Assembly (NCBI RefSeq): GCF_000739735.1
Contig: NZ_BBJF01000017.1
Location: forward strand, 1-64,000
Origin: Paraburkholderia ginsengisoli NBRC 100965
GTDB taxonomy: Bacteria; Pseudomonadota; Gammaproteobacteria; Burkholderiales; Burkholderiaceae
Direction of reading: 5' to 3'
Length of the DNA: 64,000 nucleotides
Part shown: piece after piece, positions 15,218 to 43,822 of the stretch
Position numbering within the stretch: the first letter of the stretch is position 1
How the letters are laid out: each line of letters opens with the position of its first letter
The notes under the pieces: generated by a model
Database searches by the model: none
What the model saw: only the letters and a program-made list of their open reading frames with translations
Told to the model about the DNA's origin: nothing
Position numbers and translations under genes: made by a program

Positions 15218-15841
15218 ATGGACTGGAAATGCTGCGAATTCGGTCAATTGAGTTCAGCGGAGATCTATCAGATTCTGCGCGCGCGCAACGCTATCCTGGT
15301 CGTCGAGGATGCTCACATGCATCAGGACATCGACGGCAAGGACGCTAGCGCCGTGCACGTCTTCGCTGTCGACACGGTCGGCGGCGAATCACTGGTCGTG
15401 GCCTATGCGCGTCTGCGTCCCGGCGACGAAGTCGACCCGGAAGCGATGATCGACAAGTCGCTAACGCACACCACGCGCCGTGACGACGACACCGCCGACC
15501 GGTTGATCGAGCGCACGCTGGCAGCCGCTCATGAGCGCTGGCCACAAGCGCCGGTGAGAACCCACTCGCCCGTTCATCGCGAGACGTTCTATAAGCGCTT
15601 CGGCTTTCGCAAGGCCGACGGACCATTCCTGCAACACGGCATGCCCTTTATCGGCATGATCCGCCCTGCCACCGACACACAGAAGTCGTTCAACAACCCG
15701 TCGGGTAAGAACCGCGCTTCGCCAGAACGCAGCGCAGAAGCGGCCGCACAGACAGCCGAATCCGAACACGCGGCGCGGCGCGCAGAAGGCAAGCCCAGCC
15801 TGTCGTCCCGCTTCAACACCATCCCCGGAGTTAGTCAATGA
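15218..15841 (+). CDS. GNAT-family acetyltransferase, ElaA-like
   Basis: 207 residues from the ATG at 15218, with GAGG eight bases upstream. The GNAT fold includes EIYQILRARNAILVVED at the start and ETFYKRFGFRKADGPFLQHG near the end, typical of ElaA-type proteins. After about residue 155 there is a polar Ala/Glu/Arg-rich tail not usual for ElaA. The stop overlaps the manC start by four bases (ATGA), so the two are coupled. The substrate is unknown. Acetylation of a sugar precursor or of a protein linked to exopolysaccharide synthesis is possible but not shown. Confidence 0.82.
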   Translation: MDWKCCEFGQLSSAEIYQILRARNAILVVEDAHMHQDIDGKDASAVHVFAVDTVGGESLVVAYARLRPGDEVDPEAMIDKSLTHTTRRDDDTADRLIERTLAAAHERWPQAPVRTHSPVHRETFYKRFGFRKADGPFLQHGMPFIGMIRPATDTQKSFNNPSGKNRASPERSAEAAAQTAESEHAARRAEGKPSLSSRFNTIPGVSQ

Positions 15842-17406
15842 AACAGGTCACGTCCGGCGAACCGAATCGCCATCCCACTGAAGCGGCTCCCCTCATCCTG
15901 CCCGTGATCCTCGCCGGCGGATCAGGCACCCGCTTGTGGCCACTGTCGCGCGAACACCATCCGAAGCAGTTGATCGGGCTGATCGCCGACGAATCGCTGC
16001 TGAGTTCGACCGCCGGACGACTGGACGGCCTGAATGAAGTTGAACTCGCCAACGAGTTGCTGGTGGTCTGCGGCGAGCATCACAAATTCATGAGCGCTAC
16101 GCAGGTTCGCGTGAGTGGCAAGCCTGCCCGTATTCTGCTCGAACCCGCTGCGCGAAACACCGCACCCGCCCTCACGCTCGCGGCACTCGATGCTCGCGCC
16201 CGCCATGGCGACCCGGTGCTAGTCGTGATGCCTGCCGACCACGCGGTATCGGACAACCGGGCCTTCCAACTCGCGGTTGCGCAAGCGGCCACCTACGCGC
16301 AGGAAAACGCGATCGTCGCGCTCGGTGTATTGCCGCGTCACGCCGAAACCGGCTATGGGTATATCAAACTCGGCGCGCCGCTGGCCGGCGTGCGCGGTAC
16401 GTCGGGCGCTCACCTGATTGAACGCTTCGTGGAGAAGCCCCATCAGGAACTGGCGCAGCGATACCTTGAATCCGGCGAGTACTGGTGGAACAGCGGCATC
16501 TTCGTCGTGCGGGCGTCGACGTGGCTTCGCGCTATCGAAGCACTCCAGCCCGAAATGTTCGCCGCCTGCGATGCAGCATGGAGCAACGGCACGACCGAGG
16601 GCGGCTTCTTCAAGGCAGACGCGGCAAAGTTCGCGGCGTGTCCGTCAGATTCGATCGACTATGCCGTGATGGAGCATCTCACCTCGACCTCGCAAGACAA
16701 CACGCCGCGAGGTATCGTGATGCCGCTCGCCGCCGGCTGGTCCGACGTGGGATCGTGGGACGCGGTGTGGGAAATCATGCCGAAGAGTCCGGAAGGCAAC
16801 GTCGCGCGCGGCCGTGTGATGTTCGAGGGAACGGAAGACAGCTTCGTGCATTCGGAAGGACGCCTCGTTGCCTGCGTCGGCCTGAAGGATGTCGTGGTGA
16901 TCGAAACCGCCGACGCGGTGCTTGTCGCCAACAAGAACGACGTGCAGCAGGTCAAGGCGATCGTTGGGCGGCTCAAGTCCGAACACCATGCCGAAGCGCA
17001 GGACCATCGCAAGGTTCACCGGCCATGGGGACACTATGATTCGATCGATCGCGGCGAGCGCTTTCAGGTCAAGCGCATCGTCGTCGATCCGGGCAAACAG
17101 TTGTCGTTGCAGATGCATTACCATCGCGCCGAACACTGGATCGTCGTGCGTGGCACTGCACGGGTGACCTGCGGTGAGCGGACCTTCCTGCTCAGCGAGA
17201 ACGAGTCGACATACATTGCCGTTGGCATGGTGCATCGTCTGGAGAACCCAGGCAAGACGCCGCTGGAAATGATCGAAGTACAGTCCGGGCACTATCTCGG
17301 CGAAGACGACATCGTGCGCTTCGACGATCAATATGGACGCGCAGGTACGCCCGCGGTGGATAGTACCGCGGCACCGGCACCGGTTGTACCTTCGGTGACG
17401 GGATAA
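15838..17406 (+). CDS. manC: Mannose-1-phosphate guanylyltransferase / mannose-6-phosphate isomerase
   Basis: 522 residues, the two-domain type II enzyme. The N-terminal nucleotidyltransferase has the signature LAGGSGTRLWPLSREHHPKQ (about residues 25-44) and FVEKP. The C-terminal cupin isomerase (about 395-500) has MHYHRAEHWIVVRGTARVT and EVQSGHYLGEDDIVR. It converts fructose-6-P to mannose-6-P and mannose-1-P plus GTP to GDP-mannose. It is coupled to the GNAT gene by a 4-base overlap. GDP-mannose would feed the glycosyltransferases of this locus. An Ala/Pro-rich tail follows the cupin. Confidence 0.95.
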   Translation: MKQVTSGEPNRHPTEAAPLILPVILAGGSGTRLWPLSREHHPKQLIGLIADESLLSSTAGRLDGLNEVELANELLVVCGEHHKFMSATQVRVSGKPARILLEPAARNTAPALTLAALDARARHGDPVLVVMPADHAVSDNRAFQLAVAQAATYAQENAIVALGVLPRHAETGYGYIKLGAPLAGVRGTSGAHLIERFVEKPHQELAQRYLESGEYWWNSGIFVVRASTWLRAIEALQPEMFAACDAAWSNGTTEGGFFKADAAKFAACPSDSIDYAVMEHLTSTSQDNTPRGIVMPLAAGWSDVGSWDAVWEIMPKSPEGNVARGRVMFEGTEDSFVHSEGRLVACVGLKDVVVIETADAVLVANKNDVQQVKAIVGRLKSEHHAEAQDHRKVHRPWGHYDSIDRGERFQVKRIVVDPGKQLSLQMHYHRAEHWIVVRGTARVTCGERTFLLSENESTYIAVGMVHRLENPGKTPLEMIEVQSGHYLGEDDIVRFDDQYGRAGTPAVDSTAAPAPVVPSVTG

Positions 17407-26706: not shown

Positions 26707-28998
26707 TCAGATCACCGACGCTTTCGTTTCATTCGCATAGGCGTGAATGTACTCATAGCTGCGCCGGTCGCTCCGACGCGGCGACATGCCATTGAATACC
26801 GCGCCCGCGATCAATGCGCCTGCGCTATCCAGATGCTTCAGCGTTTCCTCGACTTCCTGTTCAGTCTGCGCGTTCTCCCGCAACACGAGCACAGTCGCGC
26901 CGGCGTGACGGGTAACAATCAGCGCGTCCGTTACTGCGAGTACTGGCGGCGTGTCGAATAGCACCAGGTCGTAGTGCTCGTTAAAGTGATCGAGCAGTTT
27001 TCGCATCTGCTCCATTGCAAGCAGTTCGGAGGGGTTATCCGGATGCATGCCCGCGGGCAACAACGACAGATGCGGGACACTGGTTCGATAGACGGTGTTT
27101 TCCAGCGACGCATCGCCCGTCAGCAACTCGGCCAGCCCTGTCGCGTGCGGCAACCCGAAAAGAGCGCCGAGCCGCCCGCGCCTCAGATCGCTATCGATCA
27201 GCAACACGCGCTTGCCCGCTTGCGCGCACAACACGGCGAGATTGGCGGCAACGAACGTCTTGCCCGTGGACGGCGTTGCGCCGGTGACCATCACCACGCG
27301 GTCCTGCGTCGTAACGAGCGTCGAGTCGAGCATCGTTCGGATACGACGCAAGCCCTCGATCGCCGGATCGTTTGGACACTTCACCGCCAGCAGTGCGTCG
27401 GCGTTCGGGCGGTACGGAGGCGCAAGCGCGCGCCTGCCGCCTGCCCGTTGAGCAAGCGCCGCCGGCGCGCCAAGCAATGCCGGCGTGAGTTCCAGATTCG
27501 CCTGTTCGCTGCTGAACGGCACCGCGCCCAACATCTTCAACCGCAGACGTGTCTCGATCTGCTCGGGCTCGCTCACGGATTGCGACAGATATCGACGCGC
27601 GATCACGAATAGCACCCCGAGGAAAAATCCGGGCACAGGCGCCACCGCGATTGCCATGCCGCGCTGCGGCTTCACCGGTGTCGAGGGCTCCACCGCCGTA
27701 TCGATCACGTTCACGTTGCCCACCGTGCCCGCGCGTGACACGGAGAGTTCGTGCGCCTTGTTGAGCATCGCGACGTAAATATCCTCGGCCACTTTTGCGT
27801 CGCGTGTCAGATCGGCCGACTCCCGGTCGGCCTCAGGCATTGCATTGAAACGCCCTTCGAATTTGTCTTGTGCGGCATGCAATTCGGCGAGTTGCGCATC
27901 CACTGTCTTCACTTCGGGGCTGTGAGCGGTGAAGCGATCGAGCAACTCCGTGCGTTGCAGGTTCAGTGCCGCAATCTGTTTTGAAAACTCGATGCTGCCT
28001 TGCAGGTAGCTCTGACTTTCTGTGCTCGCCTGCATCGAGCTGGAGGTAATTCGATGCTTCTGAAGCTCGCCTTCGGCACGCTTCAGATTGTCTCGCAAGC
28101 TCGGCAGTTCTCCGTTAATGAACGCGAGCATCTTGCTCGCTTCCTGCTGATCCCGCGTGAGATGTGCCGCAACGTAGTTCCTGGCAATCGAATTCGTCAC
28201 TGCGGTTGCAACCGCAGAATCGCGATCCTCAAAGCTGATCTGCACGATGCCGGTTTCCTTGCCGATTTCGGCGATTTTCAGATGCGGCGCAAATAGATCG
28301 ACCGCAGTCACCTCGTTCAGACGCTCAACCGTAAAACGCACTCCCGCAGGCGCAACCAGCCTGTTCACCAGAATGGACACGTCGCCTGCCTGCGCCAGTT
28401 GTCCTTCCTCCCCTTCGGCCAACAGCTTGCCATCAGGGTCGAATAGCTGGAAGTGCCGGTTGTCGAGTACCTTCAGTTCCAGTTTCTTGTCCTGCAACGC
28501 AATCGGCACATTCAACTGCGCGATGCCGAGTTCTTCCCCGCCCCACGCAAACGAGGACAGTCCGAGCCAGGCCCGCGACGGCGTCCCCGGCGTGGCGAAA
28601 CTCGCAGCGAGCTTGCCGAGCACGGGGAATCTGCGTGGCGTCACCACGATATCCAGACCGTTCTGCGAGATGACCGGAGCGAGCACCGCCCGACTTCTGA
28701 TGATCGCCATTTCGGTGTTGGTGGGTGGTGCGTTCGGCGACGGACTACTCTGCATCTGCTTGCTCACCAACTGGGCCAGCTCATTCTGCTTTGGTACTTC
28801 GACCTGAACCAATGCGTCGGCCGAGTACAGCGGTGCTGCAAAAATGGCATACGCCCCAGCAAGCACGACGGTCGCCACGGTGATGCCGATCACAACCCAC
28901 AGGTTATCGATGATCAGGCGAACCAGATCCCGCAGCACGAAACCATCGCTGACGCGCGGCGAATTCACGTAGCCGGTGTGGACTTGTCGCGTTTTCAT
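26707..28998 (-). CDS. wzc: Wzc-like polysaccharide co-polymerase / BY-kinase
   Basis: 763 residues from the ATG at 28998, with GGA eight bases upstream; a TTG four codons earlier is open. N-terminal Wzz domain with TM1 (VVIGITVATVVLAGAYAIFA), a long periplasmic coiled-coil region, TM2 (AVAPVPGFFLGVLFVIAR), then a cytoplasmic BY-kinase. The kinase has Walker A VTGATPSTGKTFVAANLA, Walker A' LLIDSDLRRGR and Walker B VLFDTPPVLAVTD. The C-terminal tail has tyrosines (SYEYIHAYANE) but fewer than E. coli Wzc. It works with Wza to control chain length and export, cycling through tyrosine phosphorylation. Last gene before the terminator. Confidence 0.94.
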   Translation of the reverse strand: MKTRQVHTGYVNSPRVSDGFVLRDLVRLIIDNLWVVIGITVATVVLAGAYAIFAAPLYSADALVQVEVPKQNELAQLVSKQMQSSPSPNAPPTNTEMAIIRSRAVLAPVISQNGLDIVVTPRRFPVLGKLAASFATPGTPSRAWLGLSSFAWGGEELGIAQLNVPIALQDKKLELKVLDNRHFQLFDPDGKLLAEGEEGQLAQAGDVSILVNRLVAPAGVRFTVERLNEVTAVDLFAPHLKIAEIGKETGIVQISFEDRDSAVATAVTNSIARNYVAAHLTRDQQEASKMLAFINGELPSLRDNLKRAEGELQKHRITSSSMQASTESQSYLQGSIEFSKQIAALNLQRTELLDRFTAHSPEVKTVDAQLAELHAAQDKFEGRFNAMPEADRESADLTRDAKVAEDIYVAMLNKAHELSVSRAGTVGNVNVIDTAVEPSTPVKPQRGMAIAVAPVPGFFLGVLFVIARRYLSQSVSEPEQIETRLRLKMLGAVPFSSEQANLELTPALLGAPAALAQRAGGRRALAPPYRPNADALLAVKCPNDPAIEGLRRIRTMLDSTLVTTQDRVVMVTGATPSTGKTFVAANLAVLCAQAGKRVLLIDSDLRRGRLGALFGLPHATGLAELLTGDASLENTVYRTSVPHLSLLPAGMHPDNPSELLAMEQMRKLLDHFNEHYDLVLFDTPPVLAVTDALIVTRHAGATVLVLRENAQTEQEVEETLKHLDSAGALIAGAVFNGMSPRRSDRRSYEYIHAYANETKASVI

Positions 28999-29200
28999 GT
29001 GAAATTCCAATTTAACATTAGGTGTATCTGCTCTTCATTCACGAGCATGTTTCCCCGGTGATTGGTGGCGGCTTCCGTCGGAGACTGCGGCTAGATCACA
29101 CCATCGTCCACTAGTGGATTAGAAAATAAACACGACCGTGTCACGCGTATCAAACTGCCTCAACCGCGGATCAATCGTTCCTTCGCCGCGCTGAAGCTTC

Positions 29201-30406
29201 CTATTCGAGCCCTCGAAGCACACGTAGCAAATCGGTAGCTGCCTCTTTCCAGCGAAACTTCTGCGCGTGCTCGCGGCCTCTCACGCGCATGGTCTGGCGA
29301 GCGTCCGCATCGCCCATCAAATGCGCAATCTTCGCTGCGATATCTTCGGCCGAGCGTGCATCGCAATACAGCGCGAAATCGCCACACACTTCCGGTAACG
29401 CGCCTTCCCGCGAAGCAATCACCGGACACCCGCAATACATGGCCTCAAGGGGAGGCAAGCCGAAGCCCTCATACAGCGAGGGGAAGACAAAACACGCAGC
29501 ACGCTCGTAGAGCGCCTTCAACTCGCCATCGGTAACGTAGCCAGCCCAAACGATGTTCTCCGGAGCGGCTCCGTCATCTCGTGCCTCCGTGCCGAATATC
29601 TTGACGTTCTTGCCGCCCGCAATCACGAACTTCGGGCCACTTCGATCACGCGCGAGCAGCGCAATTGCGTCCAGGACGCGCGCAAGGTTCTTGCCCGGCG
29701 CAAGCGACCCCACGATCAATACGAAACCGTCCGGCTCCACATTTAGCCGGTTCAATATCGAATAATCGCTGACGACTCGATCAAGATGATCCACTCCGTT
29801 TCTGATCACCGAGATGTTGTCCGGGGACACACCCAGTTGCGCGGCAATACGAGCCTTTGAAAATGCAGATACGGTCAGGATGTGCCGAACATTGCGCTTG
29901 AGCAACGCAAACGAAAAGCGGTACCAGAGCCGGAATTTCGCCGAGTATCCCTCCGGTAAGTCGAAGATCGCGGCATCATGAATCATCAGCACCTGTCGAC
30001 GCATGAGCATCGGACCAACATTGCACAAGCTCAACAGCGTTCGTCCGTTTGCCGCGAACGGGAGGGCAAGCTGCTCCCACAGCACGCCACGAAAGCGCGG
30101 CACCACACGACGGGAGACCCACGGCGATACCTGATCGTCGAGATAGTCGCGAGGCACGAGTAACATCGGGCTTTCGTGAGTAGGCAGCAGGCGGCACAAT
30201 GCATAGGTAAGCTCATGCGCGACACGCTGCACGCCGGTCAGACGCTGCGAAGTAAACTTTCCGTTGATGGCGATCATCATCGGCAATTCGCCTACGGCGC
30301 TTCTGTTGTCGACAATGGCCGCTACGGAAGCCGCACCGCCTGATTCGGCGGCCGACGCCATCGCGGCTACGTCTGCCGCCTCATCCCCCTTCAGATTCTC
30401 ACGCAT
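29201..30406 (-). CDS. GT4-family glycosyltransferase
   Basis: 401 residues if started at the ATG at 30406; the frame is open to 30505 (GTG), and another start nearer MMIAINGKFTSQRLTGVQRV is possible. GT-B fold. Donor-site region FVFPSLYEGFGLPPLEAMYC with EX7E glutamates, preceded by VLIVGSLAPGKNLARVLDAI. The GVQRVAHEL N-terminus is typical of mannosyl- or rhamnosyl-transferase-like GT4 proteins. It sits between wza and wzc on the same strand with 175-200-base gaps. The roughly 60 residues before MMIAI look unconserved, so the start is uncertain. Confidence 0.85.
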   Translation of the reverse strand: MRENLKGDEAADVAAMASAAESGGAASVAAIVDNRSAVGELPMMIAINGKFTSQRLTGVQRVAHELTYALCRLLPTHESPMLLVPRDYLDDQVSPWVSRRVVPRFRGVLWEQLALPFAANGRTLLSLCNVGPMLMRRQVLMIHDAAIFDLPEGYSAKFRLWYRFSFALLKRNVRHILTVSAFSKARIAAQLGVSPDNISVIRNGVDHLDRVVSDYSILNRLNVEPDGFVLIVGSLAPGKNLARVLDAIALLARDRSGPKFVIAGGKNVKIFGTEARDDGAAPENIVWAGYVTDGELKALYERAACFVFPSLYEGFGLPPLEAMYCGCPVIASREGALPEVCGDFALYCDARSAEDIAAKIAHLMGDADARQTMRVRGREHAQKFRWKEAATDLLRVLRGLE

Positions 30407-30582
30407 ACGACCTCGCCAACTGGATGGGCGACCCTTGCTTATAACGCCCTCCGCTACAGGTTTCGCTGCCGTGACCGCGCCCGCCCACACACCCGCACCG
30501 GTCACCGAAAAATCCGCAATGGTTCATTACTTTGCGATCCTAAATTTAAAGTTGTTTGTCATTCTCCTGGCGCATGCGGCCT

Positions 30583-31854
30583 TCAGTTACGCGCCACCGA
30601 CCACAGCAGGTAGAAAGACTCAGCAGAGGGCAAGATCTGCGCAAGAAGACGATTGAAGCGCGCGGCGGGTGCCGTTCCGACATACACGACGTCGAGCGGC
30701 TTCATGTCGAACTCCGTCGCGAGCATGATTGCGTCCACCTGAGTCATGTCGAGGCGGAAGATTTCCGGCTTGTTCATTGACGGCTTATAGCTCGCCTTCT
30801 TGAATCCTTCTTCGAGCGCACCCTGCGCATTGGCTGCCTGTGTGAGCGGCGGATCGGGGTGACGGATGACGATGATCTGACGCGGGTTGGCGCCGTTCAC
30901 GTCGATACTGCCGGCCGTCGTGAGCGCGTCGGCCAACGACATTTGCCCCTGATTCATATACAGGGTCTGCGGCTTGGAGACCTCCCCCATCACGAACACA
31001 CGGTTCTGCGTGTGATCCGGCACGTTCACGATGTCGCCCGCCTGTAAAACGATGTTCTGGCGCATGTCGCCCCGATTCAATATCCGGGTGACGTCGATCG
31101 TCGTGACCCGGCCACCGCGCGACACCAGCACGCGCTGCAAATCCGCATCCGGATTCGCACCGCCCGCACGGCTGATCGCATCGACCACACGCGTCGGTGT
31201 GCCAATCAGCGGCAGTTGTCCCGGGCTCTTGATGTCGCCGGTCACCTGCACGTGCTGACTGCGATACTGAATCACGCGCACGTCTATCTGCGGGTCCTTG
31301 AGTCGATCTTTCAGCTTGTTGTAGAGCGACTTCGAAATCTCTACAGTGCTCATCCCCTCGACGCGCACACGTCCAAGCGACGGAAAGAAAATCGTGCCGT
31401 CGGCCGCCACACGTTGCCCCTGAGCGTCGAGATCCCCGGCGCCGTTAGTGGCAAACGCACTTTGCGATGTCTGGGCGCTTCCGAGCACGCCCATGCCCTG
31501 CAGAGCGCTCGAATCCGTCGTGGTCGACTGACCGCCACCGCCTAACGTCAACTCCGGATGCCGCCAAACCGTAATGCCGAGTACGTCGTTGAATCCGACG
31601 TGGTAGTCGGTTTGCTTCTCCGGCACACCGGGTTGAATGCCGTTCTCCCGAGCATGCGCATCGGCTTCATCCGATTCCTTGAGCTGATAAACGAGTTGCG
31701 GCGTGATCAGCTTGACGTCGTACACGGCCGTATCCGTCGGCCGGCTTAGATCGTCGTTCATCCGGCTCGCGTCGAGTGCCGGCCCCGGCGCTAGCGAGCA
31801 ACCCGACAATGCGACCGCCATTGCGATGGTCACGCCGATGGGGGACTTCAACAT
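30583..31854 (-). CDS. wza: Wza-like outer-membrane polysaccharide export lipoprotein
   Basis: 423 residues from the ATG at 31854, which has GGAG eight bases upstream; the open frame to 31965 is not needed. Signal peptide MLKSPIGVTIAMAVALSGCS with lipobox LSGC, Cys19 lipidated. Poly_export domain (DYHVGFNDVLGITVWRHPEL), then SLBB domains (VQVTGDIKSPGQLPLIG; VFVMGEVSKPQTLYMNQGQ). A Gly/Ser/Thr-rich insert around 120-160 is unusual. It forms the octameric export channel that docks on Wzc. Follows the glycosyl-1-phosphate transferase gene by 107 bases. Confidence 0.94.
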   Translation of the reverse strand: MLKSPIGVTIAMAVALSGCSLAPGPALDASRMNDDLSRPTDTAVYDVKLITPQLVYQLKESDEADAHARENGIQPGVPEKQTDYHVGFNDVLGITVWRHPELTLGGGGQSTTTDSSALQGMGVLGSAQTSQSAFATNGAGDLDAQGQRVAADGTIFFPSLGRVRVEGMSTVEISKSLYNKLKDRLKDPQIDVRVIQYRSQHVQVTGDIKSPGQLPLIGTPTRVVDAISRAGGANPDADLQRVLVSRGGRVTTIDVTRILNRGDMRQNIVLQAGDIVNVPDHTQNRVFVMGEVSKPQTLYMNQGQMSLADALTTAGSIDVNGANPRQIIVIRHPDPPLTQAANAQGALEEGFKKASYKPSMNKPEIFRLDMTQVDAIMLATEFDMKPLDVVYVGTAPAARFNRLLAQILPSAESFYLLWSVARN

Positions 31855-31961
31855 CTTTGTTTCTCCAGGTTTCATGGTCCTGAACTCAGGAATGTATGGC
31901 GCCGCGCCGTCCCGACGCGAGCAAACGGAATCTGTATCGTGGTAATGACTCGCACCGTCCC

Positions 31962-33344
31962 TCAAAACGCGTTGCGCCCCACGAACCCCTTCACCAGGGT
32001 GATCAGGATGATCTTGATGTCGAACCAGAAGGTCCAGTTCTGGATGTAGAACAGATCGAACTTCACGCGTGCTTCCATCTTCTCGACTTTGAGCGTTTCA
32101 CCCCGGTAGCCGTTCACCTGAGCCCAGCCGGTTATTCCTGGACGAATCCGGTAGCGGTACATGTAGCCGTCCACCACATCCTTATACAAATCGTCATGCT
32201 CGATGGCATGCGGGCGCGGGCCGACAACCGACATCTGTCCGAACAGAACATTCAGGAATTGCGGTAGTTCGTCGAGTGAAGTTCGGCGCAGAAACGCCCC
32301 CACTTTCGTGATCCGTGGATCGTTTCGAGAAGCCTGGCGTACAGTCCCGGCGCCGTTGCTATGCACCTTCATCGTCCGGAATTTGAAAATATTGAATTCG
32401 CGCCCATCGATTCCCTTGCGCTTCTGACGGAACAATATCGGCCCCGGAGAAGACAGCTTCACCGCAATGCCCAGAAAAATAAAAAGCGGTAAAAGCGGAA
32501 TCAGAACGGCGAGCGCGAAGACGCGATCGAACAGAAATTTTGGCCAGAGCTGCGGATCCGGCTCCGGACTGGTGGCGAGATTGATTGCGGGCATGTTCAG
32601 TACTTCGGTGACCGAGCGGTTCAGCAACGTCATGCTGCGAACATCCGGCAAGAAGCGCAGGTTCACGAAATCGTTGCGGAAATCCCGGACGATGCGCTGA
32701 ATCGTGCGTTCGTGCGATAACGGCAAAGCCAGCCACATTTCATCAACCTCGCGCGCACGCACTCGCCGCTTCAACTCGCGAAAGTCGGTCATGACCGGTA
32801 CGCCGCTCACACTGCGGCGAAAACCTGTGGCCTCGGCGGCATCATCGAATACGTAGATCGGCGTGAAACCGGCGGGCGCGGCGGCCTGCAACTGAGCGAG
32901 GACCGCGCGACCATAACTGCCGGCGCCCACGATCACCACATTGCGCTGGTCCTTTCCGCTCTTTCGCCAATGGCGTTGGAAGGCGCGCACGATCACCCTT
33001 TCGACCAGCAATAGTGCACCCGAGGTCAGTACCGCTTGTCCGAACCAGAGTCGCGATATGTCATTGGTCAGATGCAGCGAAAAGACCACGCACAGCCCCA
33101 GCACGACGACGGCCAACCAGGCTAGCGTCACGCGTGACAGCAGGCGGTATAGCGTCTGGCCTCGCCACGAGCGGTAAACGCCTAGGGGCGGAAACACGAG
33201 CAGCGCGAACACACACGACTGCACGACCAGAAAACGCTCTGCGTTAGTCAGGACGAACGAGCCGTCATAACGCATTCCATGCGCAAGCCAGGCTCCCGCC
33301 GCAATCAACAGGACATCGCAAAGCCTGGAAACAATTCCGAACAT
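31962..33344 (-). CDS. Undecaprenyl-phosphate glycosyl-1-phosphate transferase (WcaJ/GumD-like)
   Basis: 460 residues. Four N-terminal TM helices and a CoA-binding-like Rossmann region (VVIVGAGSYGRAVLAQLQAA). Then a fifth membrane segment and the C-terminal bacterial sugar transferase domain with FNIFKFRTMKVHS, RRTSLDELPQFLNVLFGQMS, VVGPRP and RPGITGWAQVNGYRGET. It starts repeat-unit assembly by moving glucose-1-P (in known relatives) to undecaprenyl phosphate. GGAG eight bases before the ATG. It lies 18 bases after the CRP/FNR-like gene, so they are very likely cotranscribed. Confidence 0.94.
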   Translation of the reverse strand: MFGIVSRLCDVLLIAAGAWLAHGMRYDGSFVLTNAERFLVVQSCVFALLVFPPLGVYRSWRGQTLYRLLSRVTLAWLAVVVLGLCVVFSLHLTNDISRLWFGQAVLTSGALLLVERVIVRAFQRHWRKSGKDQRNVVIVGAGSYGRAVLAQLQAAAPAGFTPIYVFDDAAEATGFRRSVSGVPVMTDFRELKRRVRAREVDEMWLALPLSHERTIQRIVRDFRNDFVNLRFLPDVRSMTLLNRSVTEVLNMPAINLATSPEPDPQLWPKFLFDRVFALAVLIPLLPLFIFLGIAVKLSSPGPILFRQKRKGIDGREFNIFKFRTMKVHSNGAGTVRQASRNDPRITKVGAFLRRTSLDELPQFLNVLFGQMSVVGPRPHAIEHDDLYKDVVDGYMYRYRIRPGITGWAQVNGYRGETLKVEKMEARVKFDLFYIQNWTFWFDIKIILITLVKGFVGRNAF

Positions 33345-36306: not shown

Positions 36307-36558
36307 GTGAAGAACGAACTCAGGCAAATCATCAAAGACACTGCGCATTTCGAAGTGTCGATGGACAGCATCTCGGACGATGACGATCTCTACGAAGCCG
36401 GACTTTCTTCGTTGAACACGATCCAGTTGATGCTGGCGATCGAACGGCACTTCAACATCGAAATCCCGGACCAGATGCTCAACCGTCACCTGTTCCAGAG
36501 CCTGAATTCGCTCGCCGATGCCGTCACCACGCTGCAGTGCGGTGTGTCTTCAGTATGA
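36307..36558 (+). CDS. Acyl/aminoacyl carrier protein
   Basis: 83 residues, GTG start at 36307 with GGAG six bases upstream. Acidic four-helix carrier-protein profile. The phosphopantetheine serine is Ser35 in DDDLYEAGLSSLNTIQLMLA, matching the G-x-[DNEKHS]-S-L pattern with Ser in place of the usual Asp. Stop and next start overlap (ATGA). In the amino acid:carrier protein ligase systems known from Bradyrhizobium and Agrobacterium, a small stand-alone carrier protein like this is charged with glycine or alanine. First gene of a five-gene operon. Confidence 0.9.
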   Translation: MKNELRQIIKDTAHFEVSMDSISDDDDLYEAGLSSLNTIQLMLAIERHFNIEIPDQMLNRHLFQSLNSLADAVTTLQCGVSSV

Positions 36559-37787
36559 ACGCACCTAAAATCAATCACGACACCCCGCGTGCCGTCGGCG
36601 TGCCGCCCTCGATATCGCCTCGACACCCTGCCGAGCACGACGGCAACGCAGTAGACAAGGCCGCTCATAGCGTCGCCCAAATCGCGGCGCACTTTGCCGA
36701 CGCGGTGGATCGCGATGCGCGGTTTCCCACTGAAGCGATCGACGCCATGCGCGAGCAACGTCTGCTCGGTGCGATGATTCCCCGCGAATTCGGCGGACTC
36801 GGTGCAACGCTTGCGGATATCGCATCGGCTTGCCGGATTATTGGCCAGTCCTGCTCATCTGCAGGAATGGTGTTCGCCATGCATCAGATTCAGGTCGCGT
36901 GCATCGTCGCACATGCGCAAGGAGGTACGTGGCACAACGTCTTCATCGAACAGCTGGTCGAGCGTCAATGGCTGCTCGCCTCGGCAACGTCCGAAGACGA
37001 AGTGGGTGGCAACCTGCGCCGCAGCAAATGCGCAATCGACGCTCAAGGCGGCGCGTTCACGCTTCACAAGCTCACGCCGACGATTTCATATGGCGCCCAC
37101 GCCGATGCCATTCTTGCCACGGCGCGACGCGATTCGGCGGCGGCGCCCGCGGAGCAGGTTCTCGTCACGCTGCTGAAATCAGACGCGACGCTGACCCGGC
37201 GTAGCGACTGGGACACCTTCGGAATGCGTGGTACGTGCAGCGAGGGCTTCGTTCTCGATGCGCAAGGTCAACTGGAGCAGATTTTCCCGATGCCCTTCGC
37301 GCAGATCGCCGAACAGACCATGGTGCCTGTCTCTCACATTCTCTGGGCCGCGCTGTGGGCGGGTATCGCAAACGATGCGTTTCAGCGCGCCAACCGCTAT
37401 TTCCGTAGCCAGGCGCAAAGCAATGCCAACGGCAACACGCCGGCCGGTCGACGCATTGCCGAAGCACTGGGCCTGATGCAGGCGATCGACGGACGGATTG
37501 CGTGCGCGTTACGCCTTCAGGCGAGACCGCGTGGTGAGCGCACATGGTCGGAGTCGATGGCCGACGCCGCCGAGATCAATACGTTGAAAACGTTTGTCTC
37601 CACGACCGGCCTACAGATCGTCCACCACGCAATGATGATCTGTGGCATGGCGGCCTACAAAAACGGCACGCCATTCACCCTCAGCCGACATCTCCGCGAC
37701 CTCTACTCCGCGCCGCTGATGATCAACAACGACCGCATCGACGCCAATACCGCGAACCTGATGCTTGCCCAGCGTCCCGCCTCCTAG
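36555..37787 (+). CDS. Acyl-CoA dehydrogenase-like flavoprotein acting probably on a carrier-protein thioester
   Basis: 410 residues from the ATG at 36555 (4-base overlap with the carrier protein gene). The fold signatures are REQRLLGAMIPREFGGLGAT near the N-terminus, the middle beta domain (DWDTFGMRGTCSEGFVLD), and a helical C-terminus ending RHLRDLYSAPLMINNDRIDA. Homologues beside carrier proteins (for example prolyl-S-PCP oxidases) oxidise thioester-bound amino acids with FAD. An about 45-residue N-terminal extension precedes the domain. The context favours an aminoacyl-S-carrier substrate over CoA, but this is inference. Eleven bases separate it from the ligase gene. Confidence 0.85.
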   Translation: MNAPKINHDTPRAVGVPPSISPRHPAEHDGNAVDKAAHSVAQIAAHFADAVDRDARFPTEAIDAMREQRLLGAMIPREFGGLGATLADIASACRIIGQSCSSAGMVFAMHQIQVACIVAHAQGGTWHNVFIEQLVERQWLLASATSEDEVGGNLRRSKCAIDAQGGAFTLHKLTPTISYGAHADAILATARRDSAAAPAEQVLVTLLKSDATLTRRSDWDTFGMRGTCSEGFVLDAQGQLEQIFPMPFAQIAEQTMVPVSHILWAALWAGIANDAFQRANRYFRSQAQSNANGNTPAGRRIAEALGLMQAIDGRIACALRLQARPRGERTWSESMADAAEINTLKTFVSTTGLQIVHHAMMICGMAAYKNGTPFTLSRHLRDLYSAPLMINNDRIDANTANLMLAQRPAS

Positions 37788-37798
37788 GAAGAAGAGTG

Positions 37799-38773
37799 AT
37801 GAGCGATTCAGCTACGATCCAGAAGCAATCCATTGAAACCTCCAACGCCATCGTCGACCGCGCGGGTGTCAATCCGTTCCGCGACGCGCTCGTCGATGCG
37901 GGTCTGTTGATACCGACGGGCGTGCAAGGCCTATTCGGTCGAAGCGGACAATTCGAGCGTGTAGTCGATGGGCTCGATGCACTGATCACACGTCTGGGCG
38001 CCGACCAGAACGCTGAAGTTCTGCGCTTCCCGCCAGCCATGAGCCGCACCGAATTCGAGCGTAGCGAATACCTCAAAGGCTTTCCCCAACTCGCCGGCAC
38101 GGTACACAGCTTTTGCGGCGGTGAACACGAGCAGCAACGCGTACTGCAATGTCTGGAGCGCGGCGAAGACTGGACCGAGCACCAGAAGCCCACCTATGTG
38201 GTTTTGACACCCGCTGCGTGCTATCCGGTCTACCCGGTCATTGCACAACGAGGACATTTGCCGGAGGAAGGCCGCATCGTCGATGCCTTTTCGTATTGCT
38301 TCCGGCACGAGCCCTCGCTCGACCCGACGCGGATGCAACTGTTCCGCATGCGCGAGTACATCAGGCTTGGCACTGCGGAGCAGATTCAGGCGTTCCGCAG
38401 CGAATGGATCGAACGCGGTACGCGGATGATCGACATGCTCGAGTTGCCGAACAGCATCGATCTCGCCAATGATCCGTTCTTTGGCCGAGGCGGCAAAATC
38501 GTTGCGCGCAGCCAGCGTGAACAGAACCTCAAGTTCGAGTTGCTGATTCCGATCGAGAGTGAAGACAGGCTGACCGCTTGCCTGAGCTTCAACTATCACA
38601 TGGACCATTTCGGTTTGTTGTGGGGAATCAAGACGCAGGACGGCGGCGTTGCCCACACAGGCTGCGTCGGCTTCGGACTGGAGCGACTCACACTCGGTCT
38701 TTTCAGGCACCACGGATTTGACATCGAGAAGTGGCCGCAGAAAGTCCGGGATGCGCTGTGGGGCAATGCATGA
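37799..38773 (+). CDS. Amino acid:[carrier protein] ligase (seryl-tRNA synthetase-like)
   Basis: 324 residues from the ATG at 37799. It is a class II synthetase catalytic core without the tRNA-binding coiled-coil arm of SerRS. Motif 2 lies at FRHEPSLDPTRMQLFRMREY and motif 3 at GCVGFGLERLTLGLF. The three zinc ligands of atypical SerRS and of the Bradyrhizobium enzyme (C131, E176, C279 as I recall) appear as C141, E186 and C289, with exactly the same 45- and 103-residue spacing. Known homologues activate glycine or alanine and load it on a carrier protein, not on tRNA. Both neighbours overlap or nearly touch it. Confidence 0.93.
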   Translation: MSDSATIQKQSIETSNAIVDRAGVNPFRDALVDAGLLIPTGVQGLFGRSGQFERVVDGLDALITRLGADQNAEVLRFPPAMSRTEFERSEYLKGFPQLAGTVHSFCGGEHEQQRVLQCLERGEDWTEHQKPTYVVLTPAACYPVYPVIAQRGHLPEEGRIVDAFSYCFRHEPSLDPTRMQLFRMREYIRLGTAEQIQAFRSEWIERGTRMIDMLELPNSIDLANDPFFGRGGKIVARSQREQNLKFELLIPIESEDRLTACLSFNYHMDHFGLLWGIKTQDGGVAHTGCVGFGLERLTLGLFRHHGFDIEKWPQKVRDALWGNA

Positions 38774-39825
38774 CCACTGAAGCCGCATTTGTCACCCGCG
38801 CGTCGAGAGATCTGCTGCGCGAGGCGCAAGATCGCATGAAGACCTGGCGTGCCCATCCGTTGCATGGTCCGACCATGGTCCGCAAGCAAACCAATTGCTA
38901 TGTCGACCTCTGGATCGAACTGCTGGCGTGGTGGGGGTTGGACCCGCATGCGGCGTTGCCCTTCACTGTCGCGCTGGATTTCGAAGGGGATGAGTTCACG
39001 TTCTTCAAGTTCCCTCCGGAAGACATCGAGCGGCTCTATGGTGTGCTGATCCAGGAACACGCGATTTTCGAACCGCTTGAAGTCCACGTCGCCAATCAGC
39101 TGCGACGTGGCGGTGTCATGCTGGTCGAAGTCGACGCGTGGCACTTGCCGGACACGCGCGGCGTTGCGTATCAGCAGCAACACACAAAGACCACCATCGG
39201 CATTCACGCGATAGACAGCAGTAGCCGTCAACTCGGTTACTTCCACAATTCGGGCTACTACTTCGCCGAAGGTGCTGACTACGACGGCTTGCTGGACACA
39301 TCCTGCTCCGCCGTGTTGCCCCCCTATGTGGAATGCGCGCGGCGTCGTTTTGCGCCTTTAGCGGCAGAGCAACTGCGGGAGACTTCGCTGTCACTGCTGC
39401 GGCGACATCTTCTACGACGGCCGGCCGGGAACCCGATCACAGCGTTTGGAGAAGCCCTCGCCCGTGACGCGAGCGAACTCGCTTGCCGTCCCATGGCGCA
39501 TTTTCACGCTTACTCGTTCAATACGCTCCGACAGCTCGGGGCAAACTTCGAATTGCTGGGTCAGTACTTTCGCTGGCTGAATGCGACCGGTGCGGACTAC
39601 GCGGACTCGCTCGATACCTTGATTGCGGCGTGCGACACGATCGCGTCGGAGTCGATGGTGCTGGAGTTTCGCCTCGCACGCGCGTGTTCAAAGGGCAAGG
39701 CGGATCATGGCGAAGGCAGCATCGAGATACTGGAGCGCGCCTACGCGTCGCTGATGAGTGGCATTGATCGCGTGTTCTCCCGAACCCAACCGGCCAGCCA
39801 GCCGGATGAAGTTCTCATGAATTAA
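38770..39825 (+). CDS. DUF1839 family protein, candidate acyltransferase
   Basis: 351 residues from the ATG at 38770, overlapping the ligase gene by four bases. Conserved-looking blocks are RKQTNCYVDLWIELLAWWGL, DFEGDEFTFFKFPPEDIE, LVEVDAWHLPDT and QQQHTKTTIGIHAID with GYFHNSGYY. An early Cys (C43), a His (H138) and an Asp (D149) lie in an order like papain-fold C39/BtrH-type proteins, some of which move acyl groups off carrier proteins. That reading is inference; the family has no assigned function that I know. DUF1839 genes are known neighbours of amino acid:carrier protein ligase genes. Confidence 0.85.
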   Translation: MTTEAAFVTRASRDLLREAQDRMKTWRAHPLHGPTMVRKQTNCYVDLWIELLAWWGLDPHAALPFTVALDFEGDEFTFFKFPPEDIERLYGVLIQEHAIFEPLEVHVANQLRRGGVMLVEVDAWHLPDTRGVAYQQQHTKTTIGIHAIDSSSRQLGYFHNSGYYFAEGADYDGLLDTSCSAVLPPYVECARRRFAPLAAEQLRETSLSLLRRHLLRRPAGNPITAFGEALARDASELACRPMAHFHAYSFNTLRQLGANFELLGQYFRWLNATGADYADSLDTLIAACDTIASESMVLEFRLARACSKGKADHGEGSIEILERAYASLMSGIDRVFSRTQPASQPDEVLMN

Positions 39826-39848: not shown

Positions 39849-42458
39849 ATGATGAAACCTCCGGCCGTGGCGCAAGCGGACAACGGCACCGCAGTCGAAA
39901 CACCGCCCTCGCCGCAATCCGACGGTTGGAAGATGTGTAGCACGCCTGCTGGCGCGGCCACTCGACCGGAAGCATTGGCAACAATCAATTCCGCGGCATG
40001 GTTCGAAGCACTGGTGCCCGGTACGGTAGCGCAAGCTCTTGCTGTCCATGGCGTGTTCGATCCGCTCACCCCCACGCCTCTGGGTCGGCAAGACTACTGG
40101 TACCGGTTGCGGCTGTCCGGCACAGGCCGACGATTGATCCGGCTTCACGGTCTCGCAACCATCGCTGAGGTCTGGTTGGACGAGACGCTTCTGCTTCGAT
40201 CGGACAGCATGTTCGTCTCTCATGAGACTGCTGTCGACATCGGCCCCGACGCGAGCACGCTCTATGTATGCTTTCGCTCGCTCGAACATCATCTGAGTAC
40301 TTGCCCGCCGTCCAAACGGGCACGCTGGCGTACACGTCTGGTCGATACACCGTCGTTGCGTGAAGTTCGCACTACACTGCTCGGACACATGCCCGGCTGG
40401 TTCCCTTCGATCGAACCGATTGGCCCGTGGCGTGCTATCGAAATCGTCGATCCGCACGGCCCCCCTCGCCTCTGGCAACATTCTCTGCGCTCATCGGTGC
40501 GTGGCCATGATGGCCTGCTCGAAGTCGAAATCAAACTGGCCGCGCCTGTCGAGGAAGGACGCAACGCATGGCTGCGATGCGGCGAGCACGAAGCACCGCT
40601 CACGCAACTCGCGCCGTCCTCGTTCAGCGCGCGTCTCACTTTGCCCGAGGTCGAGCTATGGTGGCCGCACACCCACGGCGAGCCGTCCCTGTACGAAGTC
40701 ACGGCCGATATCGACGGAGTCACGCTGTCACTAGGGCGGACCGGCTTTCGGACGATAACTCTCGAACGCGGTCCTGAAGGGCGCGACTTCGGGCTATCGG
40801 TTAACGGCACGCCGGTCTTCGCACGCGGTGCCTGCTGGAGTAGCGCGGCTCCGTTGAGCCTGCACGCTGACACGTCCATTTACGAGCACTATCTGCATCT
40901 GGCAAAGACCGCCGGTCTCAACATGATTCGGCTCGGCGGCACGATGACCTATGAAGCGGATGCGTTCTACGCGCTCTGCGATGAGTTGGGACTGTTGGTA
41001 TGGCAGGACTTCATGTTTGCCAACTTCGACTATCCGTCGCTTGACGCGGGCTTTGTCGAACGGGTCGAGCGCGAAGCGATTCAGTTCATGACGCGTACCG
41101 CTGGCAACCCATCGCTCGTGGTTTTCTGCGGCGGTAGCGAGATCGCGCAGCAAGCCGCGATGGTCGGACTGTCGCCACCGCAGCGCGGCGTCGAACTCAC
41201 CGAAAGTACGCTCGCCGATATCGCTGCAACCTACCGCCCGGACGCTATCTATATCAGCGATTCGCCGCATGGTGGCGTCCTGCCTTTCTACCCGAATGAA
41301 GGCGCGTCGCACTACTACGGCGTGGGAGCCTATCGTCGGCCGCTCGACGATGCCCGTCGCGCGGGTGTGCGATTTGCGAGCGAATGTCTGGCCTTTGCCA
41401 ACGTGCCATGCGATGCGACACTCGAGGCAATCGGCTCACCCGCACCGCAAGAGCCGCGCTGGAAGCGCGCGGTGCCGCGTGACCCCGGAGCATCGTGGGA
41501 CTTTGACGATGTTCGCGATCACTATCTGCATGAACTTTATGGTGTCGATGCGGCCCGCCTGCGTAATGAGGACCCGGCACGTTACCTGGAGCTCTCACGT
41601 GCCGTGGTCGCCGAAGTTGTCGGCGAGACATTCGCGGAGTGGCGGCGCATCGGCTCCGTTTGCTCGGGCGCGCTCGTCTGGCAATTGCAGGACGTCTTGC
41701 CAGGCGCGGGCTGGGGCATAGTTGATGCGTACCGCCGCCCGAAGTCCTTCTGGTATGCGATGAAACAGTCGCTGCAGCCGCGACAGATTCTGCTCACGGA
41801 TGAAGGCCTCAACGGTCTCGATATCCATGTATTCAATGACAGCCAGCAGAGGCTCGACGCACACGTTGAAATCGTGGCGATGCGCGACGGCAGTATCCCG
41901 CTCGCCCGCGCTCGCCACGAAGTGCGGATCGCCGCACATGGCGCAGCCGTATTCAACGCAGCCGAATTGTTGGGGCGATTTTTTGACTTCACCTACGCAT
42001 ACCGGTTTGGCCCGCGAGAGCACGATACGGTGATTGCCTCGATGTACTCCACTAACGGTGTCCTCCTGTCTCAGGCATTCTATTTCCCCGAACGCACTCA
42101 GGCTGGCATATTCGAGCGTGGAGATATCGGCCTCGAAGCACACGCGGAGCCGAGCGATGGGCGATGGTGGGTCACTCTCCAGACCAGCAGACTTGCGCGT
42201 CACGTGCAGATTTCAGCGCCGGGCTTCGTGCCATCCGACAACTGGTTTCATCTCGCGCCTGGGGCTACTGTCCGGGTAGAACTTGTAAGCGACAGCGCTC
42301 CACGCTCACATCCTTTCGCTCAGTCCACCGCGCAAGCGCCTGACGCCGATACAAAGCCTTCCGTGATTGAGGTCCGGGCGGTCAACTCAAGCAAAACCCT
42401 TCGCGTAAGAAGTAAGCAGCCTGACCAAAGCTTCGTCGATGCGAAAGGCTTGAGCTAA
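39849..42458 (+). CDS. Glycoside hydrolase family 2 (beta-mannosidase-like) protein
   Basis: 869 residues; ATG at 39849, with another ATG one codon later. Jelly-roll sugar-binding domain (about 80-200), Ig-like domain, then a TIM barrel from about 300. Candidate acid/base E431 in NPSLVVFCGGSEIAQQ and nucleophile E512 in RFASECLAFANVP match GH2 positions. The usual Asn before the acid/base is Ser, and the usual His-Pro is Asn-Pro. No signal peptide, so it should act in the cytoplasm. It lies 23 bases after the DUF1839 gene and ends overlapping the convergent regulator gene. It may trim or transglycosylate a mannosyl conjugate, or be a non-catalytic sugar binder. Confidence 0.85.
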   Translation: MMKPPAVAQADNGTAVETPPSPQSDGWKMCSTPAGAATRPEALATINSAAWFEALVPGTVAQALAVHGVFDPLTPTPLGRQDYWYRLRLSGTGRRLIRLHGLATIAEVWLDETLLLRSDSMFVSHETAVDIGPDASTLYVCFRSLEHHLSTCPPSKRARWRTRLVDTPSLREVRTTLLGHMPGWFPSIEPIGPWRAIEIVDPHGPPRLWQHSLRSSVRGHDGLLEVEIKLAAPVEEGRNAWLRCGEHEAPLTQLAPSSFSARLTLPEVELWWPHTHGEPSLYEVTADIDGVTLSLGRTGFRTITLERGPEGRDFGLSVNGTPVFARGACWSSAAPLSLHADTSIYEHYLHLAKTAGLNMIRLGGTMTYEADAFYALCDELGLLVWQDFMFANFDYPSLDAGFVERVEREAIQFMTRTAGNPSLVVFCGGSEIAQQAAMVGLSPPQRGVELTESTLADIAATYRPDAIYISDSPHGGVLPFYPNEGASHYYGVGAYRRPLDDARRAGVRFASECLAFANVPCDATLEAIGSPAPQEPRWKRAVPRDPGASWDFDDVRDHYLHELYGVDAARLRNEDPARYLELSRAVVAEVVGETFAEWRRIGSVCSGALVWQLQDVLPGAGWGIVDAYRRPKSFWYAMKQSLQPRQILLTDEGLNGLDIHVFNDSQQRLDAHVEIVAMRDGSIPLARARHEVRIAAHGAAVFNAAELLGRFFDFTYAYRFGPREHDTVIASMYSTNGVLLSQAFYFPERTQAGIFERGDIGLEAHAEPSDGRWWVTLQTSRLARHVQISAPGFVPSDNWFHLAPGATVRVELVSDSAPRSHPFAQSTAQAPDADTKPSVIEVRAVNSSKTLRVRSKQPDQSFVDAKGLS

Positions 42459-43822
42459 CCGGCGTCCGGTGATTGGGAAGCCGCATTTCGTGGCCGCGGA
42501 ATCCCATACGCGTCCATCCACCGATAGACCGTCGCGCGAGATACGCCCAATTCGCGCGCAACCCCCGCGAGGCGTCCGCGATTGCGGGCCAGTGCCAACT
42601 CGATCGTCTCCCGCTCGATCGCTTGCCTCGCAGCCGCAATCGACAATGGCGCAGCCTCCGAGCTACGTTGCAACTCCAGATCTTCAGCGGTCACGAGTCG
42701 CCCTTTCGCCATTACCAGCGCGCGCCGCACTCGATTGATCAGTTCTCGAACATTGCCCGGCCAGTCATGCTTGTACATGGCGTCAATCGCGTCCGCCGCA
42801 AATCCGCGGACACGATGTGGCGCATCCGACCTGAAGCGCTCGAACATGTGCAAGGCAAGCAGTTCGATATCCTTGCCGCGCGATCTTAATGGCGGCTGGT
42901 CGACGCGCAATACGCAGAGGCGGTGAAACAGGTCCGCGCGAAAGCGCCCTTCGGGTATTGCGCCAAGTAGATCGACGTGAGTAGCGGATACGATGCGGCA
43001 ATCGACGGCCACCGGTTCATTGCCGCCGAGCCGACGAATCGTGCGTTCCTGCAAAAACCGCAACAGGCTCGCCTGGCTATCCATCGGGAGATCGCCTATC
43101 TCGTCAAGAAACAGCGTGCCGCCGTCGGCCGCTTCAATGTGCCCGATCTTCCGTGTGTTGGCGCCGGTAAACGCGCCGCGTTCATAACCGAACAATTCTG
43201 ACTGCAACAGGTTATGAGGAATTGCGGCGCAATTGATCGCAACGAAAGCGCCGGCCCGTCGCGGCGAGCTCTCGTGAATTGCGACTGCCGTCAGTTCCTT
43301 GCCTGTGCCCGTTTCTCCCGAGACCAGAACCGGTGCGTCTGTACGCGCGACCCGGCGTATTGCCTCAAACAGTTCCAACATCGCGTCGCAGGTGCCAATC
43401 ATGCTTTTCTCGACAGCAGGAACCTTTTCCAACGGCTGACCTGACAGGCTTGCCATTCCGTACGCGTGTCCTACCGCATCCGCAATCCGTTCTTCCGCCG
43501 AGGGCAATGTGATGTAATCGAAGCAGTAGTCCCTGAGTAACGATCGCACTGCCGGCATCTGAGCCTGGTTAGCATCGACGAGCGCGACCCATGCCACGTC
43601 ACGCAATCTTGCGCACGCCGCGGATATCTCATGCAGGGCTTCTGTCCGGACGGTGCTCAGATCGAGCACTCCTCCCCTTATTTCGCCACTAGCGGTGTAG
43701 ATCCTGCCCACATCCGCAACGACCTGCACATTCCAGTCGCGGCGTTTCAACTGTTCGCACAGACCGCGCAGCGGCGTTTGCGTCAGGTAGATCAGCGGGC
43801 GCTGTTGAGGGGTTCTCAACAC
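42455..43822 (-). CDS. Sigma-54-dependent regulator, VpsR/BerB-like
   Basis: 455 residues. Receiver-like N-terminal domain with Asp54 (GGVLDLS). Central AAA+ domain with Walker A SGETGTGKEL, the sigma-54 contact loop GAFTGA, Walker B GGTLFLDEIGDL, and R-finger region. C-terminal Fis-type helix-turn-helix (LAGVARELGVSRATVYRWMD). The domain plan resembles VpsR of Vibrio and BerB of Burkholderia, which bind c-di-GMP and switch on exopolysaccharide genes. Its stop overlaps the convergent GH2 stop by four bases. No downstream target promoter was recognised in the window. Confidence 0.9.
   Translation of the reverse strand: MLRTPQQRPLIYLTQTPLRGLCEQLKRRDWNVQVVADVGRIYTASGEIRGGVLDLSTVRTEALHEISAACARLRDVAWVALVDANQAQMPAVRSLLRDYCFDYITLPSAEERIADAVGHAYGMASLSGQPLEKVPAVEKSMIGTCDAMLELFEAIRRVARTDAPVLVSGETGTGKELTAVAIHESSPRRAGAFVAINCAAIPHNLLQSELFGYERGAFTGANTRKIGHIEAADGGTLFLDEIGDLPMDSQASLLRFLQERTIRRLGGNEPVAVDCRIVSATHVDLLGAIPEGRFRADLFHRLCVLRVDQPPLRSRGKDIELLALHMFERFRSDAPHRVRGFAADAIDAMYKHDWPGNVRELINRVRRALVMAKGRLVTAEDLELQRSSEAAPLSIAAARQAIERETIELALARNRGRLAGVARELGVSRATVYRWMDAYGIPRPRNAASQSPDAG

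Follow-up and report, generated by a model that had tools for sequence, protein, structure and literature searches.

CcbD takes proline from a carrier protein and passes it via a Cys residue onto an amino sugar (PMC12945683), and BtrH is described as a carrier:aminoglycoside acyltransferase (PMC10318531). For DUF1839 proteins, PMC10318531 (2023) reports a papain-like fold whose triad is C-(T/S)-H, His and Thr/Ser having traded positions, and proposes acyl-CoA-dependent glycan processing. An older prediction is found in a note in proofs to PMC2922099 (2010), according to which a protein linked to a seryl-tRNA-synthetase-like ligase joins an amino acid to the amine of a cell-surface sugar through an amide bond, and a redox enzyme oxygenates the aminoacyl group. 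We infer that the predicted amide ligase of that note, Atu2574, is a DUF1839 protein, because Atu2571 is the carrier and the genes run in the order carrier, flavoenzyme, ligase, DUF1839. If so, the proposed acyltransferase activity of DUF1839 was anticipated in print in 2010. Loading of amino acids onto the carrier by homologues of the ligase has been shown by others, as reported in citing papers. Furthermore, a table in PMC10888616 gives a fold change of 3.0 each for Bll0957 (the ligase) and Bll0958 (the flavoenzyme next to it) in a Bradyrhizobium phaR mutant at low oxygen.

The window, i.e. the whole stretch of 64,000 nucleotides of Paraburkholderia ginsengisoli DNA analysed here, carries a block of this kind (Table 1). 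The DUF1839 protein matches PF08893 over residues 23-333 with 421.4 bits, far above the curated cut-off of 22.5, and the family assignment made in the original prediction from the DNA letters is hence secure. That prediction also had the gene overlapping with the ligase gene, and the DUF1839 ATG at 38770 indeed shares four bases with the ligase stop (ATGA, 38770-38773). The residues it named are found where it placed them: C43 in QTNCYVD, H138 in QQQHTKTTIGI, and an Asp at position 149.

Table 1. Coordinates of the DUF1839 block, of codons discussed in the text and of neighbouring exopolysaccharide genes in the window.
Feature	Position	Strand	Size, match or remark
ManC-type GDP-mannose enzyme, neighbouring exopolysaccharide region	15838..17406	+	TIGR01479 2e-189
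Wzc	26707-29010	-	exopolysaccharide gene in 26707..33344
GT4	29201-30505	-	exopolysaccharide gene in 26707..33344
Wza	30583-31965	-	exopolysaccharide gene in 26707..33344
WcaJ	31962-33344	-	exopolysaccharide gene in 26707..33344
Carrier protein (CP), phosphopantetheine Ser S35	36307..36558	+	NF005480 1.2e-38; PDB 4h2w_C, 2jq4 Atu2571
Acyl-CoA-dehydrogenase-fold flavoenzyme (ACAD)	36555..37787	+	family profiles; nearest solved chains DnmZ and other flavin monooxygenases
Amino acid:[carrier protein] ligase, class II seryl-tRNA synthetase paralogue	37799..38773	+	NF005479 1.3e-164; PDB 4h2w, 3mey Bll0957
DUF1839 protein, putative aminoacyl (acyl) transferase with papain fold, dependent on the carrier	38770..39825	+	351 aa; PF08893 E 3e-126
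C43 codon, candidate nucleophile	38896..38898	+	Cys in 88/108 aligned members
H138 codon, His retained also in Cys-less members	39181..39183	+	107/108; 20/20 Cys-less
T141 codon, candidate for the published Thr/Ser in the canonical His place	39190..39192	+	conservation; PMC10318531
D149 codon, third residue of the original prediction; probably a turn residue	39214..39216	+	82/88 Cys-bearing; misfit spacing
H159 codon, candidate for a catalytic His at the position usual for Asp/Asn	39244..39246	+	88/88 Cys-bearing, 18/20 Cys-less; end of modelled strand 153-160
Beta-mannosidase-like glycosidase (GH2), conserved at the end of the block	39849..42458	+	Pfam GH2 domains
VpsR/sigma-54 activator facing the block	42455..43822	-	PF20161, PF00158

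The ligase and a carrier with a phosphopantetheine Ser share an operon with DUF1839, and both match chains of 4h2w; the Ser is kept in 64 of the 65 aligned carrier proteins. The flavoenzyme encoded between them resembles the nitrososynthase DnmZ and seems to be devoid of the usual catalytic Glu. The position nine residues after the RD motif, which we take to be that of the canonical catalytic Glu, is Ile or Val in all 64 aligned sequences. Since the nearest solved chains are DnmZ and other flavin monooxygenases and the presumed Glu position is occupied by Ile or Val, oxygenation is more likely than dehydrogenation as the reaction of this enzyme. In the glycosidase at the end of the block, E431 and E512, presumably the catalytic-type glutamates of GH2, are present in 60 of 60 aligned sequences.

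The same order of carrier, flavoenzyme, ligase and DUF1839 was found at 61 of 73 DUF1839 loci, with GH2 next in 59; of the remaining loci, ten show no ligase within the sequence fetched around them, one (L051) is truncated and one (L089) is rearranged. Among 150 genomes of the family, DUF1839 and a ligase over the cut-off occur together in 56, DUF1839 alone in 3, the ligase alone in 5 and neither in 86, while the corresponding numbers for 398 genomes of the phylum are 16, 0, 12 and 370; as the sampled genomes are related, neither these counts nor those of the loci are independent, although the P values that go with the locus counts take the genomes to be so. The carrier-related role that had been expected of the gene is supported by the gene order together with this co-occurrence. 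An ordinary papain-like peptidase or amidase that does not act on a carrier would fit the published fold class (PMC10318531), but its gene would hardly be coupled so tightly to those of the ligase and the carrier as it is at the 61 loci, and we consider such an enzyme highly improbable.

Several individual loci deserve a mention. The genome that contains the window has the complete block twice, the other copy being L084 (G000:C47:894119-895057). In Rhizobium leguminosarum (L051:8447-10447) the block has decayed to a DUF1839 frame and truncated matches to the ligase and GH2, with a transposase gene nearby. In Rhizobium gallicum (L054) the block is preceded by nif genes and followed by a gene for ACC deaminase.

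In the phylum sample, 12 of the 28 ligases over the cut-off occur without DUF1839, and thus outlets other than a DUF1839 transferase exist. No BtrH-like replacement was found near the ligases of 11 loci without a DUF1839 neighbour, and a Pfam scan of ten neighbour proteins from six of these loci showed no obvious replacement. A double hydrolase that resembles exosortase-associated hydrolases 1 and 2 lies near 36 of 63 ligase-bearing loci. Two clusters (L187 and L191) combine carrier, flavoenzyme, ligase and double hydrolase and have neither DUF1839 nor GH2; the double hydrolase may serve there as an alternative unloading enzyme.

Relatives for the residue analysis came from searches of 150 genomes of the family, 249 of an order, 240 of a class and 398 of the phylum, and additionally from named plasmids. 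One copy (L123) is broken, and its two pieces were tallied separately in the count of 137. A scan of genome contigs yielded two relatives only, and the viral contigs contained no relative, none of 93 pattern matches there being confirmed. In the alignment of 108 members, which leaves out six matching places of the order sample and most of the 59 plasmid records, position 43 is Cys in 88, position 138 is His in 107, position 159 is His in 106 and position 149 is Asp in 90. The three residues singled out originally are hence conserved beyond chance, H138 being nearly invariant and D149 variable. Within the 88 Cys-bearing members, H159 is present in every one and H138 in 87, position 141 is Thr in 87 and Ser in one, and D149 is found in 82; Thr at position 141 occurs in 8 of the 20 Cys-less members.

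The original prediction had combined C43, H138 and D149 into a triad with the local pattern of BtrH-type proteins. This conservation supports C43 as the likely nucleophile. The BtrH pattern, however, was not confirmed, as H138 and D149 are 11 residues apart, whereas His and Asp are separated by 16 residues in five and by 18 in four of nine BtrH_N proteins. Because of this spacing and of its variability among the Cys-bearing members, D149 was rejected as the third catalytic residue. On the same two grounds, spacing and conservation, H159, which had been overlooked, appears to be a better candidate: it lies 18 residues after T141 and 21 after H138. The place of the canonical His could be taken by T141 or H138, the published choice being Thr/Ser. 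H138 lies 12 residues from the LP motif, a distance also seen for the His of three of the nine BtrH_N proteins (T141 lies 15 away), and hhalign places H138 opposite the BtrH His. T141, in turn, fits a strand start in our low-confidence model and the 18-residue spacing. D149 fits neither of these, nor the distance from the LP motif. We take T141 to be the published Thr/Ser, and T141 and H159 are then better triad candidates, in line with the Thr/Ser and His given for DUF1839 in PMC10318531.

Membership in the BtrH family by sequence was tried with Pfam and with hhalign, the latter also against controls that were reversed, column-shuffled or unrelated, and was rejected as not significant. BtrH_N (PF14399) gave no match for the window protein and reached E ≤ 1 for only 2 of 46 members (best 0.044), and the score of 21.0 for the comparison of the DUF1839 and BtrH_N profiles was within the range of the shuffled columns (up to 26.8 in 40 shuffles). 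A direct place in BtrH_N, below the Pfam cut-off and with a profile score of this size, is therefore not upheld. A search of PDB sequences with the DUF1839 profile gave nothing significant and no CcbD chain.

The structure prediction made use of the window protein and two relatives only. The full-length model has a pLDDT of 53 and a pTM of 0.58, its C-terminal helical part being fair and its N-terminal part poor. It shows a helix at 41-54 with C43 at its start and strands at 117-122, 143-148 and 153-160, at mostly less than 50 in pLDDT; this order of elements agrees with a papain-like core, in which the Cys opens a helix and two strands come after it. A Foldseek search with this model returned no match below E 0.001; CcbD ranked 1, 3 and 4 and CtaG 6 and 16, with E values of 0.08 to 1.2 (the best CcbD at 0.08). 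In VIA-align, the same low-confidence model matched AziU3 with Z 12.0 and CtaG and CcbD with Z of about 8.6 to 9.4. These three proteins make up 14 of the best 21 rows and are the only ones there that reach the N-terminal domain, and the other seven cover the helical bundle only, from about residue 197. A trimmed model was poorer (pLDDT 48.9), and among the 50 matches listed for it AziU3 had Z 9.6 and CcbD and CtaG were absent.

The papain-like fold of the original prediction has been published for DUF1839 (PMC10318531), and our own low-confidence model lends it weak support. The full-length matches, mainly the carrier-dependent AziU3, CcbD and CtaG, speak for the prediction, and the pLDDT of 53 limits what can be drawn from them. 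Taken with this reservation, the model gives moderate support to a carrier-dependent two-domain papain-like enzyme.

The AziU3/U2 pair is involved in ring formation. By analogy, DUF1839 might catalyse an intramolecular step of an intermediate bound to the carrier instead of a transfer, and the highest Z of AziU3 (12.0, and 9.6 with the trimmed model), as well as the oxidising flavoenzyme that precedes DUF1839, would agree with this. However, the model is too weak to put AziU3 above CcbD or CtaG, and the conservation of the Cys suggests covalent acyl chemistry, which makes an intramolecular reaction improbable in our estimate.

A more careful look at the 20 Cys-less members shows that they form four groups in a FastTree tree (sizes 11, 6, 2 and 1). 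Eleven members lie within complete or nearly complete blocks of one genome group and of Cupriavidus metallidurans. They retain H138 and H159, whereas position 43 is R or Q, position 141 is A or S and position 149 is V; each genome or record with one of them has a Cys-bearing DUF1839 too, usually just past GH2 on the opposite strand. Such pairs of a Cys-less gene in the operon and a Cys-bearing gene elsewhere were seen at L050, L085-L088, L090-L092, L118/L119, L124 and L125. Six further members stand alone as additional copies, and their genomes have a Cys-bearing copy as well. The other three (L093, L094 and L095) belong to clusters of carrier, flavoenzyme and DUF1839 that contain no ligase and lie close to the double hydrolase; H159, too, is lost in two of the three.

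In the family sample, all 84 copies of DUF1839, which are spread over 59 genomes, were examined. A Cys-bearing copy occurs in 56 of the 59 genomes, and these are all 56 that have a ligase over the cut-off. The three exceptions (G006, G036 and G098) contain Cys-less copies only and no ligase over the cut-off, G036 having a partial ligase match of 114 bits elsewhere in the genome. In every case in this sample in which a ligase-bearing block contains a Cys-less copy, a Cys-bearing copy is also present in the genome. As the Cys-bearing copy tracks the presence of the ligase, the Cys appears to be tied to the ligase, i.e. to the aminoacyl-loaded carrier. The proteins of G006 and G036 are sisters in the tree, and hence the independent events of Cys loss are few.

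These members bear on whether the main task of DUF1839 is to bind carrier and acceptor or to serve them as a scaffold, with the Cys as one function among several. H138, D122, Y134, D170 and R304 are each retained in 20 of the 20 Cys-less members and H159 in 18, some of these members being part of complete operons, as would be expected of a scaffold. Nevertheless, K80, Y186, H246 and F250 mostly accompany the Cys and are mostly lost together with it, and a Cys-less copy in a ligase-bearing block is always backed by a Cys-bearing one in the family sample. A role mainly in binding or as a scaffold is, in our judgement, quite unlikely.

The surroundings of the block point to exopolysaccharide. The ManC, Wzx, Wzc, Wza, WcaJ and GT4 genes of the window all lie within about 26 kb. 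With the window genes as queries, exopolysaccharide markers were detected in 40 of 60 DUF1839 contexts, the other 20 being markerless, versus none of 20 control stretches, taken from 20 of these genomes at offsets that we set arbitrarily. When only these 20 genomes are considered, 13 DUF1839 contexts (counted by eye) and no controls have a marker.

The block, the conservation of Cys and His and the coupling to the ligase would fit a hydrolase equally well, namely a thioesterase with an editing or releasing function, in which C43 would take the aminoacyl group from the carrier as a thioester and water would remove it. Such an enzyme would leave both the GH2 glycosidase and the exopolysaccharide linkage unexplained. 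Furthermore, DUF1839 has a conserved C-terminal helical domain, and its best structural matches, obtained with a weak model, are transferases or carrier-bound modifying enzymes. We therefore regard a thioesterase as rather unlikely.

We consider it moderately probable, judging from gene context and conservation, that DUF1839 is a papain-fold cysteine acyltransferase that acts from carrier to acceptor. The ligase charges the carrier with an amino acid as a thioester, as is known for homologues, and the flavoenzyme would oxidise the carrier-bound aminoacyl group. C43, activated by H159 held by T141 (or by H138), would accept the aminoacyl group from the carrier to form an enzyme thioester, from which an amine or hydroxyl of the acceptor would take the acyl group off. 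The likeliest acceptor would be a sugar of the exopolysaccharide or a lipid-linked precursor, and the GH2 glycosidase might act before or after the transfer. A broader proposal, which we put forward tentatively and as a possibility only, is a tRNA-free decoration of exopolysaccharide with an oxidised aminoacyl group: a synthetase paralogue would load the carrier, an N-oxygenase-like flavoenzyme would alter the amino group, and a papain-fold transferase with a swapped C-T-H triad would pass the product to a sugar, with some lineages splitting the job between Cys-bearing and Cys-less partners.

If DUF1839 is the unloading transferase, the missing step is supplied and the residues to change are named (C43, H159 and T141). 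The natural Cys-less versions would then serve as controls, and the exopolysaccharide would be the place to seek the product. The loss of the Cys wherever the carrier-loading ligase is missing makes the transferase idea directly testable.

Among known systems, CcbD/LmbD of lincosamide synthesis, as proposed for DUF1839, form a carrier-dependent amide on an amino sugar via a Cys, and CcbD is a full-length match, with Z 9.3-9.4, for the weak DUF1839 model. Unlike DUF1839, they have a C-H-Glu triad and belong to an antibiotic pathway with an adenylation domain instead of a synthetase paralogue. BtrH (PF14399) shares with DUF1839 the early Cys and the LP motif ahead of the His region, but differs in the spacing of the triad, and DUF1839 stays under its Pfam cut-off with no significant profile similarity. 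CtaG and AziU3 match both domains of the weak DUF1839 model structurally, at 10-14% identity in the alignments, and act in other pathways. The fold and role of DUF1839 have largely been predicted in print rather than demonstrated. The DUF1839 described in PMC10318531 has the same conserved Cys, Thr and His, to which the carrier, the ligase and the pattern of Cys loss are added here. The prediction for Atu2574 concerns the same block and the same proposed job, and its note in PMC2922099 is given without fold, residues or counts. To these, the present comparison of sequences adds new evidence: the block recurs at most of the loci, the Cys is lost where the ligase is missing, Cys-bearing and Cys-less genes occur in pairs, and exopolysaccharide genes are linked to the block.
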